A DNA stretch of 27,555 nucleotides from a virus. The stretch is taken from the IMG/VR virus record IMGVR_UViG_3300023276_000718, positions 1 through 27,555 of that record, one strand, 5' to 3'. Below, in pieces: positions 2,941 to 7,168 of the stretch. The notes beneath the pieces were generated by a model. It ran no database searches. It was given only the letters and a program-made list of their open reading frames with translations, and was not told where the DNA came from. The position numbers and the translations under genes were made by a program. Every line of letters starts with the position of its first letter. Position 1 is the first letter of the stretch.

Positions 2941-3738
2941 ATGCAAAAAAGACGTAATATTAGAAAAGTCACGCAGGAGCCGTTTGTGGTTGAGCACAAA
3001 ACTAATATACAAAGAAGAAATGAAAATAGGAGAATTGTAAGAACTACTAACAATCAAGCAATTCAGATGAACATTTCTAAAGATATGCAATTAAGAAATT
3101 CAGCAATAGTTTCTCCGATAAAAGTTAAATATTCTGCGGTTCCAAAGTTATTTAAAGACGAAACTATTTATATCATAGGAGGTGGCCCTTCATTAAATAG
3201 TTTTGATTTTAGAGCTTTAGTAGGTAAAAAAACTATTGCAATTAATAAGGCAGTAATATATCATCCAACTGCCGATGTTCTTTATTGGACTGATGGTAGA
3301 TTTTATACTTGGTTTAAAAATGAAGTGGATAATTATAAAGGATTAAAATTTGCATTAAAACCAGGCAGCCTATATACTAATGATATTAAAATTCTAAGAA
3401 AAGGAAAACCTTATGGATTAGAGGAAGATCCACAAACATTATCACACGGATTTAATAGTGGGTATGCTGCTATTAATTTAGCGTATCATTTAGGTGCAAA
3501 AAGAATTGTATTATTAGGATTTGATATGACTAATGATGGTAACCAAACTCACTTTCATGATGGGTACCCTACGCGAGCAGCAGGCAATAGAATTTATGAA
3601 GATAAGTTTTTACCAGGATTTAAACAACTTTCATCAGAAATAAAAAATAAAGGGATAGACGTATACAATGCATCCCCACATAGTAGATTAAAAGACTTTC
3701 CTATAATTACATTGAATCAGGCATTAAGCTTTAGATGA
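2941..3738 (+). CDS. DUF115/MptE-like or sialyltransferase-like Rossmann-fold protein
   Basis: This 265-residue protein is the only plus-strand gene of the window. After a basic, arginine-rich N-terminal tail of about 65 residues comes a Rossmann-like core: YIIGGGPSLNSFDF at 77-90 (a glycine-rich nucleotide loop), KTIAINKAV at 97-105, ADVLYWTDGRF near 111-121, and NSGYAAINLAYHLGAKRIVL followed by LGFDM further on. The GGGPSL…N…DxxYW pattern is seen in the MptE-like/DUF115 proteins and in GT42-type sialyltransferases. A sugar- or nucleotide-handling role therefore fits, but the exact reaction cannot be set. It converges on the zinc-ribbon gene with a 15-base tail-to-tail overlap. The opposite orientation suggests a later insertion. 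Confidence 0.7.
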   Translation: MQKRRNIRKVTQEPFVVEHKTNIQRRNENRRIVRTTNNQAIQMNISKDMQLRNSAIVSPIKVKYSAVPKLFKDETIYIIGGGPSLNSFDFRALVGKKTIAINKAVIYHPTADVLYWTDGRFYTWFKNEVDNYKGLKFALKPGSLYTNDIKILRKGKPYGLEEDPQTLSHGFNSGYAAINLAYHLGAKRIVLLGFDMTNDGNQTHFHDGYPTRAAGNRIYEDKFLPGFKQLSSEIKNKGIDVYNASPHSRLKDFPIITLNQALSFR

Positions 3739-4215
3739 TCGCTTAGCATAAGTCATAAACTCTCTTTGTTCCTTTTTAAGGAGGTGTTTACAGTGTTTAG
3801 TAAATTTAATTGATGTATCTATAATTCTACCGTCTACTGTGTTATTCTGTGAGTTATGGGCTTTAGAACATTTACTACAAACAAAATTCTCTACCTTTTT
3901 AGAATCCATTCTAGATTTAATAGGAACTTTACATATACTACAGTTCCAGTCAATAAGATCAGCATCTTTTACTAATTCTTTAAGTGTAGTGAAAGTTTCC
4001 CTAAAAGGATTCCAAATAGCTTTATTAACATTCTTTTCATGATCATTCATATCTTCTACTTTAAAAATAACTTCAAAAGCTTGAGTATCAGAATCCAACC
4101 ATTTCATGTAGCGATTATTTAAAAGTAATTTTTGCTTCAAAGGCGGCAGGTTCTCTAATAGAATACCATACCGCCTTTTATACCATCCAAAGTTTATTTT
4201 ACGAACTTTATACAT
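3724..4215 (-). CDS. Putative zinc-ribbon protein, function unknown
   Basis: This 163-residue protein of unknown role carries two CxxC knuckles, CSIC at 92-95 and CSKC at 113-116, separated by 17 residues. This is the usual geometry of a zinc ribbon. An extra HCKH cluster lies at 141-144. The N-terminal 60 residues are basic and aromatic-rich. It starts 11 bases after the stop of the cysteine-rich microprotein, so the two are probably co-transcribed. Its last 15 bases overlap the end of the plus-strand gene. Nucleic-acid binding or binding to host RNA polymerase would be typical for a small phage zinc ribbon, but nothing in the sequence decides this. Confidence 0.75.
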   Translation of the reverse strand: MYKVRKINFGWYKRRYGILLENLPPLKQKLLLNNRYMKWLDSDTQAFEVIFKVEDMNDHEKNVNKAIWNPFRETFTTLKELVKDADLIDWNCSICKVPIKSRMDSKKVENFVCSKCSKAHNSQNNTVDGRIIDTSIKFTKHCKHLLKKEQREFMTYAKRSSKA

Positions 4216-4226
4216 AAGGTTTTAAT

Positions 4227-4292
4227 TTAACAGTTACAACATGTACAATTACATGATTTACCACAACCACAGGTTTTACAATTACATTTCAT
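4227..4292 (-). CDS. Cysteine-rich 21-residue microprotein, metallothionein-like
   Basis: A complete frame from ATG (4292) to TAA (4227) encodes 21 residues, nine of them cysteine (positions 3, 5, 8, 10, 14, 16, 18, 19 and 21). The cysteines fall in CxC, CxxC and CC arrangements (MKCNCKTCGCG…NCTCCNC); the other residues are Lys, Asn, Thr, Gly and Ser, with no aromatic residue after Met1. This is the composition of a metallothionein. The 25-residue copper metallothionein of Neurospora crassa, with seven cysteines, is a known protein of comparable size. The ORF lies 14 bases after the internal head protein gene and 11 bases before the zinc-ribbon gene, with an A-rich leader. Metal binding is inferred from composition; expression is unproven. 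Confidence 0.65.
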   Translation of the reverse strand: MKCNCKTCGCGKSCNCTCCNC

Positions 4293-4306: not shown

Positions 4307-5248
4307 TTACAGGTTTGATCTTAATCTTGCAAATTTCTGTGAAACAGATTCTGCTACATATTCAAAAGATTCTGGTACTTTAGCCGAAAGTTTCTTTTTA
4401 GCATCAGCTTCCTTTTTCTTAAGTTCAGCAATATCTTCTTTACTGTCTTCTATTGCCTTTTGTAATTTTTGAACTTGTTCTTCGGAACCTCTACCTGTTT
4501 TTAAATCTCTTTTAGCTTGATCTAAATCTTTCGTTGCTTTAGCCATTGCAGTTCTTTCATCTTCTATAGATTTATTATAAGCCTTTATATCTGATTCTAT
4601 CTTTGCGTTAGCATCATCCTTCGGTGCTTCGGTTGTATCATCAGCCTTTGGTGCTTCGGTTGTATCATCTTTCTTTGGCTTTTCAGTCTTTGCTGGCGTA
4701 TCATCTTTCTTTGGCTTTTCAGTCTTTGCTGGTGTATCATCAGCTGATGTGAATTTAGGTTTATCTTCTGCTGCATCTTTTGATGTTTCAGATTCATAAT
4801 CAGCTAATGCCTTTTGCGCCTTTGTTGCCTTTGCTGCTAATTCCTTTTGTTTAACTTTTAATCTTTTAGATTCTTCACCATCTGCTGCTTTAAGTACAAT
4901 CTTATTTGCAGCCATAGATGATTTTACTTTAGCCAATGAAGAAACCTTTTTTAGACCCGGTGTAGTAGCAAGACTATCCATTCTCTGTGAAATGTTAGAT
5001 GCTGAATCTGCTAATGCTGCATTCTTAGCTTGATTTGCTTGATTCAATACTTCCTTTTGTCCTGCCGATAAATCACCTTTAGATTTTTCTTTCTTCTTAG
5101 CATAATCAACATTATTTAATGCCTGTGCCACTTTAGCCTTTTGAAGCTTCTTAGCATTATTTTTAATCTTTTTCCATTTAATTGGATTTTTGATTGCATC
5201 TATTAATGCCTCGTTTACAAATTGGTCATATGTTTTTAATTTACCCAT
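4307..5248 (-). CDS. Putative internal head protein with capsid-targeting sequence
   Basis: This 313-residue, highly charged Lys/Glu/Ala-rich protein starts MGKLKTYDQFVNEALI. The segment KTYDQFVNEA matches the capsid-targeting sequence of T4 internal proteins (KTYQEFIAEA) position by position. In T4 that peptide sends the protein into the prohead core and is cut by gp21 after the glutamate. The middle (about 165-210) is a low-complexity linker of DDTPAKTEKPKK and DDTTEAPK repeats. The rest is strongly helical and likely coiled coil (about 215-295), and YVAES near the C-terminus is another possible cleavage site. It lies directly downstream of the capsid gene and its terminator, with its own promoter-like box. 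A core protein (gp67/68-like) is the alternative to a packaged internal protein. Confidence 0.7.
   Translation of the reverse strand: MGKLKTYDQFVNEALIDAIKNPIKWKKIKNNAKKLQKAKVAQALNNVDYAKKKEKSKGDLSAGQKEVLNQANQAKNAALADSASNISQRMDSLATTPGLKKVSSLAKVKSSMAANKIVLKAADGEESKRLKVKQKELAAKATKAQKALADYESETSKDAAEDKPKFTSADDTPAKTEKPKKDDTPAKTEKPKKDDTTEAPKADDTTEAPKDDANAKIESDIKAYNKSIEDERTAMAKATKDLDQAKRDLKTGRGSEEQVQKLQKAIEDSKEDIAELKKKEADAKKKLSAKVPESFEYVAESVSQKFARLRSNL
4623..4741. repeat. Tandem repeats inside the internal head protein gene
   Basis: Two adjacent short tandem arrays lie here. A 20-base unit (ggtgcttcggttgtatcatc) occurs twice with a 27-base period (4623 and 4650). A 36-base unit occurs twice back to back (4670-4705 and 4706-4741) and differs at a single base (c at 4697, t at 4733). 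Both preserve the frame and encode the Pro/Lys/Thr/Asp-rich linker. The near-identity indicates recent slippage or duplication. Confidence 0.9.
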
Positions 5249-5347: not shown

Positions 5348-7168
5348 TTAGATAAGTGAACAACCAGTGAACGTGAAGTTCATTGTGTAATACATTAATT
5401 CAGGATTGAACCCAGCGTCTACTAAAGCGAATCTAGATTTAACCGCGATTTTAGGAGCCATAGTTCCTTCTGCGATTGTTTCTACTGATTCAGCCATTAA
5501 GTAAGGCATGAATACTAAACCAGGTGAGTTACCATCACCTTTTCTTCCTACAGCAACTGTGTAGTCATTAAAGGCTCTGTTTGGATCAACATAAATAGTT
5601 ACCCCAGCGATCGCACCGATTGGATATAAAGATCCACCAGCTTGATTAACTGTATTTGATAACGGATATGCAACGAATCCAGCAACTGATTGAAGAGCAG
5701 TAGCCATTTCTCCACCTGTTACAGCGAAAGTAGCTGGTCCTCTTCTACCTCTTGTAGCAATTAAGTTACTTGCAGCAAGAATCTTAGTATAGATTCTTCT
5801 CTGTAAAGTACCTTGTACATTACCACCACCAAGAACGTTAGTCTGTGCAGCACCAAGTCCGGCAGCATTGACGTTAACGTTTGTAGTGTTGTTAGGTCCT
5901 AATGCAATTACAGTAGTAGCAGCACCTGCTTGGTCAAACTGTTGAGATAACTGTGTACCACTTACAGCAGCAACTTGGCTGTTGTTAGTTACACCGTTTC
6001 TAAAGATTCTGTCCAAGATGTATTTATTGATAGATTGAGTTAACTCATTTACCAATACAGCCTCAACTTGAGCAACAGCATCAATTCCGAATTGCTTCAG
6101 ATCTTGAACTTGTTCTCTAGTTACAGCAGCAGCAACTTGGAAAGTTTCAGCAGCTACAGACTTGTTGAATAAGCTAAGTCCCATAACGTTATCAACAGTT
6201 GATTCACCTACACCTCTTTGGTAAGGCTCTAAACCATTAATATTATTAAAACCACCAACAGCAACCTGACCAGCAGGATCATTTGCAGGTTGGAAAGCAT
6301 TACCAGAAAAACCAGAAATATGATCTTCTAGAGCTTTTACTAAACTTAATCCAGATGGAGTTCCAAAAGTACCTAATGCATTACCTGCGGCTAAAACCAC
6401 GTTAAGCGGAGCAGCAGTACCAGAACCGTAAAAAGCACCACCGTCAACTATACAAGAGTATAATGGACTAGCAGCAGTTTCAGCACCTTGTGAAAAAGTA
6501 AAGCCAGTGTTATGAACAGCAGCAGTACCAACACCACCTAAAGCAGATGTGTTAGCTCTTACTCTGAATATTGGGAATCCGTCAATTCTTGAGTTTCCAA
6601 CAAAAGTTAATTCGTAAGATCCACCAGAAGTAGCAGAACCAAACCCAGCAGCACTATCAACGTAAATGATATCATCTACACCAAAAGTACCAGCCGCTAA
6701 AGTAGCGTTAGCTTTGATCATTAATGGAGCAGCAACAGTATCTAAAGCACCGTTTACTGGAGCTCCTGATCCTCTACCACCACCGTATACAAAGTCTAAG
6801 TAAGTTAATACTCCCATAGGGCCTTGCATTGGTACAACAGGTACTAGGTCTAAACCTACAGTCTGAGCCGCTACTTGCATTGCAAGTGGTAACAAAGAAA
6901 AAGGTCTGTCACCAGATCCAGTTGCTTGTGCTGGGAAAGCATTCATTGATCCAGGGTTTCCTGGCAATGTAACGTTACCCATACTTTGAACATTCATGTT
7001 CGGGTTAAGGTGTACAGTATTGTAAACACTCTCATTAAGGTTATGGTAATGGCAGTACTTAGACATCCAAGATAACTTAGACTTTTCAGTAATTCCAGTA
7101 CTTTCCTCAATAACAGGTCCCCAAGTCTTTTGAACCTCAGCCTCGTTGATTAATTGATTTGCGTACAT
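5348..7168 (-). CDS. 23: Major capsid protein (gp23-like)
   Basis: This 606-residue protein lies directly downstream of the prohead protease and portal, the T4 order 20-21-(22)-23. T4 gp23 has 521 residues. The C-terminal segment (LVFMPYLMAESVETIAEG, then KSRFALVDAGFNPELMYY) and the central part (TREQVQDLKQFGIDAVAQVE, then LVNELTQSINKYI) follow the gp23 pattern. The region of about 130-330 is Gly/Ala/Ser-rich, beta-like and longer than in T4, suggesting an enlarged insertion domain. LINEAE (6-11) and NLNES (43-47) fit the gp21 cleavage rule L/I-x-E, so the propeptide may end at Glu46. Base composition and codon use look less AT-biased than the neighbours, as expected for a very highly expressed gene. 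The gene is followed by a strong terminator. Confidence 0.92.
   Translation of the reverse strand: MYANQLINEAEVQKTWGPVIEESTGITEKSKLSWMSKYCHYHNLNESVYNTVHLNPNMNVQSMGNVTLPGNPGSMNAFPAQATGSGDRPFSLLPLAMQVAAQTVGLDLVPVVPMQGPMGVLTYLDFVYGGGRGSGAPVNGALDTVAAPLMIKANATLAAGTFGVDDIIYVDSAAGFGSATSGGSYELTFVGNSRIDGFPIFRVRANTSALGGVGTAAVHNTGFTFSQGAETAASPLYSCIVDGGAFYGSGTAAPLNVVLAAGNALGTFGTPSGLSLVKALEDHISGFSGNAFQPANDPAGQVAVGGFNNINGLEPYQRGVGESTVDNVMGLSLFNKSVAAETFQVAAAVTREQVQDLKQFGIDAVAQVEAVLVNELTQSINKYILDRIFRNGVTNNSQVAAVSGTQLSQQFDQAGAATTVIALGPNNTTNVNVNAAGLGAAQTNVLGGGNVQGTLQRRIYTKILAASNLIATRGRRGPATFAVTGGEMATALQSVAGFVAYPLSNTVNQAGGSLYPIGAIAGVTIYVDPNRAFNDYTVAVGRKGDGNSPGLVFMPYLMAESVETIAEGTMAPKIAVKSRFALVDAGFNPELMYYTMNFTFTGCSLI

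Follow-up and report, generated by a model that had tools for sequence, protein, structure and literature searches.

Genes at the locus

The window, by which we mean the whole stretch of DNA analysed (27,555 bases), is a virus record that carries genes for a T4-type major capsid protein, a prohead protease, a portal and a clamp loader. Between two of its minus-strand genes lies a short frame that runs from ATG to TAA and has the product MKCNCKTCGCGKSCNCTCCNC (Table 1). The original prediction had this frame filling the intergenic gap, with 14 bases to the gene upstream and 11 to the gene downstream, and these coordinates were verified. The composition ascribed to the peptide is also seen in the translation: 9 of the 21 residues (43%) are cysteines, in CxC/CxxC/CC order, and there are no aromatic or hydrophobic core residues. 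No signal peptide is present.

Table 1. Positions of the nine-cysteine frame and neighbouring genes in the window
Feature	Position	Strand	Remarks
21-aa nine-cysteine microprotein gene, CxCxxCxCxxxCxCxCCxC, metallothionein-like	4227..4292	-	Neighbour-anchored conservation, 30/79 phage relatives
313-aa protein, no family match	4307..5248	-	Upstream of the nine-cysteine frame
163-aa zinc-ribbon-like protein (CSIC...CSKC)	3724..4215	-	Downstream of the nine-cysteine frame; anchor gene of the comparative test
T4-type major capsid protein	5348..7168	-	phrog_138, E 4.9e-30

The N-terminus of the 313-aa protein, MGKLKTYDQFVNEA, resembles the T4 capsid-targeting sequence of the internal head protein type, a likeness that we presume from T4 internal proteins and a regular expression; the C-terminal ESVSQKFARLRSNL of this protein is conserved. 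The 163-aa protein has no match in Pfam and a weak one to PHROG 21525, of unknown function. The records closest to the capsid protein include an uncultured huge phage and Prevotella Lak phages, among others. On the opposite strand the window carries an alpha-2,3-sialyltransferase-like gene (2941-3738), and the site reads as a cargo spot. In three relatives (L013, L016, L029), fucosyltransferase- and sulfotransferase-like genes, by our own reading, are inserted beside the peptide, upstream of the zinc-ribbon gene.

The nine-cysteine codon pattern, with up to three mismatches allowed, matched once in the window and never in 100 dinucleotide-preserving shuffles. Only one other of the window's 154 ATG-started open reading frames of 15-40 aa reaches 15% cysteine. 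No Shine-Dalgarno sequence precedes the frame in the window, and an SD-like stretch was found in 11 of 174 members of the family described below; such sequences are often missing in Bacteroidota phages and their hosts. Searches of Pfam, NCBIfam and PHROGs (E up to 10) and of PADLOC returned no match to the peptide, and this absence from all four family libraries agrees with the expectation that gene callers miss the frame. The only sequence match in the PDB was the wheat Ec-1 metallothionein, which was not significant (E 3.8), and a profile of the family found nothing there. Among 50,697 phage records, tblastn gave no match, where the low-complexity filter may hide the peptide, and blastn gave only 30-base matches (E ~6).

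Conservation and turnover of the frame

The downstream 163-aa gene was used as bait, so that the peptide itself played no role in the selection of phage relatives. A 21-aa frame with the same nine ligand positions was found in 30 of the 79 phage loci that have upstream sequence. It lies directly upstream of the 163-aa gene, at 11 or 17 bases, in 25 of these; in the other five, ~1-1.9 kb of other genes, glycosyl- or sulfotransferase-like by our own reading, stand in between. All frame-bearing relatives keep the nine ligand positions, one of them as His, and none has an internal stop. In pairwise comparisons of the 16 distinct core sequences of the window lineage, cysteine codons showed 24.3% synonymous and 1.39% non-synonymous differences, and spacer codons 39.8% non-synonymous differences. 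All of the non-synonymous change at cysteine codons comes from a single sequence (L003), which has His at position 16 (TGT to CAC), and both TGT and TGC occur in 8 of the 9 cysteine columns. Since these columns vary between TGT and TGC but hardly in the residue encoded, the constraint is on the cysteine residue and not on DNA or RNA. With an FAD dehydrogenase gene as a second anchor, a cysteine-rich open reading frame was present at 13 of 77 loci, and 11 of these (nine distinct peptides) have the nine-cysteine form with every cysteine retained. The codon comparisons in the window lineage show selection on the thiolate ligands, and not selection on the spacers or RNA or the work of chance.

That the frame arises by chance or is a sequencing artefact is suggested by little more than its very short length. 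This explanation is refuted by the shuffles, by a pattern-reversed control with 0 matches in every bacterial genome searched, by recovery of the frame from hundreds of independent assemblies, and by change at cysteine codons that, apart from the one Cys-to-His, is synonymous only; we regard its remaining probability as negligible. The prediction that such a cysteine composition would be hard to obtain by chance has thus held, and the frame is confirmed as a real gene, although its translation is inferred.

The check proposed at the outset, a search of related phages for a conserved peptide with cysteines kept and synonymous-biased substitution, came out positive, with one Cys-to-His and a wider scope than expected. 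What had been set down as grounds for refutation was borne out in one part: the frame is missing from many relatives that share its flanking genes (~49 of the 79 zinc-ribbon-anchored loci), but no internal stops were found, and the ligands are kept wherever the frame is present. When mapped on a tree of the downstream gene, the frame appears or disappears at least five times. A single clade of 26 sequences is mostly frame-positive and includes three losses (L010/L024, L018 and L032); the last two codons of the frame remain in L010, and L018 has an apparent deletion between short repeats. A gain is seen in an isolated pair (L068, L072) within an otherwise frame-negative clade. With so many close phage relatives lacking it, the peptide is not essential, and on the evidence of this tree it behaves as an accessory gene, with at least five gains or losses at one site.

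Distribution, neighbours and alternative roles

When IMG/VR and GTDB genomes were scanned for the pattern and low-complexity poly-Cys reading frames were filtered out, the family grew to at least 177 distinct contexts and at least 148 distinct peptides of 20-23 residues, mostly on IMG/VR contigs. The consensus is M(x0-3)C[ND]C[KQ]xC[NKG]C[G]xSCxCxCC[ND]C and the pattern CxCxxCxCxxxCxCxCCxC-stop; spacer columns are mostly N, D, K, G, S and T, with V or I common at one column. Most of these members were found by a cysteine-pattern search, so that conservation of cysteines in this wide census holds by construction; the unbiased sets are the two anchored ones and, through its negatives, the host genus described below. 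The small size and abundant cysteines might also befit the precursor of a ribosomally synthesised and modified peptide (RiPP), or a secreted peptide. However, a leader region is missing, as Met and 0-3 residues are followed by Cys, no modification enzyme was recognised adjacent in the contexts inspected, and all nine cysteines are invariant, which makes such a product hardly credible.

Other cysteine-rich frames were met in passing. Small Cys-tailed frames with a hydrophobic front half, MKKFICDLIYALSFRNLCLGWCGSKLKCDCNCNC and MKKFICNLINIITFKQVCFKWCCSNCKCK, stand upstream of the FAD gene at L477 and L521. Three viral contigs (L564, L568, L570) have frames built from repeats, (CKCSGCSCNSA)n, and L569 has a longer protein with CDCDPCKCCKKCECHPCKCC (4490-4564), all in unrelated contexts.

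Among the matches listed, the neighbours of the peptide fall into ~45 upstream clusters, one of them holin, and ~50 downstream clusters, and in 15 contexts the gene that follows is encoded on the other strand. These neighbours bear on the notion that the frame is a leader peptide (uORF), in which stalling at cysteine codons, or metal binding by the nascent chain, would regulate the next gene. Cys-rich copper-responsive leader peptides of bacteria are indeed short frames upstream of a fixed downstream gene, and the nine-cysteine frame is likewise short, often lacks an SD sequence, and in many contexts immediately precedes a gene (by 11 bases in the window lineage). In contrast to those leaders, no constant downstream gene exists: with ~50 unrelated gene families downstream, the nine-cysteine peptide is not a leader peptide. 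The opposite-strand neighbours, the five window-lineage loci with intervening genes, and a terminator after the peptide in the FAD context also speak against this role, which is largely refuted and which we consider very improbable.

Downstream, the most frequent neighbour is an FAD/NAD dehydrogenase (46 contexts, among the matches listed). Together with the very high thiol density, this would suit a thiol redox buffer or a disulfide peptide that acts as a decoy against the redox or defence chemistry of the host, instead of a metal binder. Yet the fixed spacing of an odd nine ligands, the CxC/CxxC/CC order and the Cys-to-His change suit metal coordination, and without a signal peptide the product would remain in a reducing cytoplasm. 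In most relatives, the FAD gene with its hairpin and terminator also occurs without the peptide, which marks this gene as a site of integration and not as a partner. A redox role can therefore be kept only as an improbable alternative.

The hairpin upstream of the phage FAD gene is an observation in its own right. It has an invariant 9-nt loop, ATTCATAGC or sometimes ATTTATAGC, on a covarying stem of 4-6 bp, with 24 distinct hairpin sequences in 139 occurrences (L095 826-945, L107, L116, and ~60 of the 77 FAD-gene loci, L459-L538), and is followed by a rho-independent-type terminator and a GTATATTA box. No Rfam family matched above threshold, and the hairpin may represent a new RNA element of phages. 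That the ATTCATAGC-loop hairpin belongs to the peptide gene was rejected, since it is present without the peptide in most relatives.

The zinc ribbon had been named as a neighbour in the original prediction. It is present in the window but is no general feature of the family, being absent beside the peptide in most contexts, and a zinc-delivery pair with an adjacent zinc ribbon was accordingly rejected as a general rule.

A T4-type capsid profile matched in 26 of 42 long viral records (two weakly) and a T4-type portal in four more, so that 30 of the 42 have one or the other gene. The peptide could be a metal or thiol cargo made for the head, or packaged into it with internal head proteins. Capsid-targeting-like N-termini were found in 52 of 131 directly upstream genes versus 162 of 1016 other open reading frames of the same loci, the window's own upstream protein has KTYDQFVNEA, and several lineages have, close by, a structural-type protein that opens with MCxCGCNTC and continues with a prohead-protease-like LxE motif. 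However, the peptide itself has no capsid-targeting signal, bacterial copies exist without a virion, the regular expression was chosen after the neighbours had been seen, and homologues were only partly collapsed. Neighbourhood statistics alone leave a capsid-linked role open, as a lead and not a test; we rate it as unlikely, though less so than a redox role. Structural-type phage proteins that start with MC(x)CGCNTC(E/D)T and continue with LNES or LTEG were noted at L105 1964-3082, L113 11-1285, L398 4702-6054 and elsewhere. LNES/LTEG resembles a prohead-protease site, and these proteins have a cysteine module fused to a possible capsid-targeting sequence.

Among the genome matches listed, all bona fide bacterial ones came from marine Flavobacteriia, including MED-G11, or from unclassified marine Bacteroidota. 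One genus of marine Flavobacteriales with ~1 Mb genomes (that of G002) has the peptide in single copy in 18 of 25 genomes, mostly at one syntenic chromosomal site that, by our own reading, follows PurM, glutamine synthetase, a CaxA-like antiporter and a 119-aa protein. In the seven negative genomes the antiporter query was unmatched as well, so that the region is probably missing from them. Across the 18 host species, cysteine codons differ by 36.2% synonymously and 0% non-synonymously, and spacers by 63.2% non-synonymously; one copy (G004/L260) starts with ATA instead of ATG. Wider sampling, with the query genome counted, found the peptide in one genome out of 395 in the class and in two out of 150 in the family, and showed it to be rare there. 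The 21 residues are too few to show which way the gene passed between phage and host. In 17 of the 18 genomes of the genus, a GTTATTAACA(ATTT) box stands 28-43 bases past the peptide stop (host loci L252, L231, L458, L539-L555); it is perhaps a DnaA-box-like or regulatory site.

A probable minimal metallothionein-type peptide

Metallothioneins are typically enlarged by repetition of modules, and His is itself a metal ligand. One family member (L111) is a 36-aa form, MRNRQNCNCENCKCQKACNCMKCNCSKSCDCACCDC, with 13 cysteines and the CxCxxCxCxxx module repeated. Taken together, the invariant thiolates, the drifting polar spacers, the Cys-to-His swap and this repeat form point to a metal-thiolate cluster peptide, and the reading as a metallothionein-like protein put forward in the original prediction fits them, with metal binding inferred. 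Three attributes looked for in a metallothionein are seen: very small size with many cysteines in CxC/CxxC/CC order (20-23 aa, 9 Cys), cysteines invariant with variable spacers in the anchored set (a His being the sole exception), and, in the window peptide, absence of an aromatic or hydrophobic core. A fourth, the binding of several d10 metal ions in thiolate clusters, is inferred.

Known metallothioneins differ in detail. Fungal family 8 members (Neurospora crassa, and the Agaricus bisporus copper metallothionein), with 26 aa and 7 cysteines in the order X2-CXC-X5-CXC-X3-CXC-X2-C-X3, were once considered the shortest (PMC4755600). The nine-cysteine peptide is, like them, single-module, tiny, CxC-rich and without aromatics; unlike them, it has CxCxxCxCxxxCxCxCCxC with 9 cysteines in 20-23 aa, so that the number and spacing of the seven-cysteine order are not matched, and there is no demonstrable homology. 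Nine cysteines is the number that forms an M3Cys9 cluster (PMC10612145), as in the animal beta domain and the wheat Ec-1 beta-E domain, but these are eukaryotic domains of ~30 residues within larger proteins and have another cysteine spacing. The bacterial SmtA/BmtA/PmtA group (Pfam Metallothio_Pro) and mycobacterial MymT are also Cys-rich and serve as cytosolic metal buffers, but are longer, at ~50 residues or above, and the fold of the SmtA group is zinc-finger-like (PMC10612145). SmtA-type profiles of Pfam and NCBIfam did not match our peptide (E up to 10). No report of a phage metallothionein was found in the open-access literature, and as a metallothionein family this would be the smallest natural one known to us, with nine ligands in 19 residues.

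In our view the frame is likely to be an accessory gene that is translated into a minimal metallothionein-type peptide; its translation, its metal binding, its late expression and any benefit are all inferred. In such a peptide, the nine cysteines would fold around a small metal-thiolate cluster, such as M(II)3Cys9 or a Cu(I) cluster, in the reducing cytoplasm, and the spacers (Asn, Asp, Lys, Gly, Ser, Thr) would need only to be small and polar. The peptide would probably be made from late transcripts, late expression being inferred from the head-gene neighbourhood. It could buffer zinc or copper released when host proteins are degraded or overloaded, and/or feed zinc proteins and protect the cell until lysis, and phage and streamlined marine Flavobacteriales host may share one metal-handling peptide. 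Beside the peptide gene we identified neither a transporter or sensor of metals nor a Zur/CueR-type site.

The family is new and common to marine phages and bacteria, is most likely metallothionein-like, and has a scope far above that of the earlier proposal. A broader proposition, which remains a serious but tentative possibility, is that it represents a new class of metallothioneins, the smallest known, widespread among marine T4-type phages as an accessory gene and belonging to the core genes of one streamlined marine Flavobacteriales genus. Viruses would use this unannotated peptide to control metal in infected cells, and might carry it in the capsid for delivery along with the DNA. With only 21 residues, the peptide is within reach of peptide synthesis, and a natural Cys-to-His variant is available for comparison. 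Zinc, copper and iron limit or poison cells in the ocean. If the proposition is true, metal buffering would be a common function of phages there.
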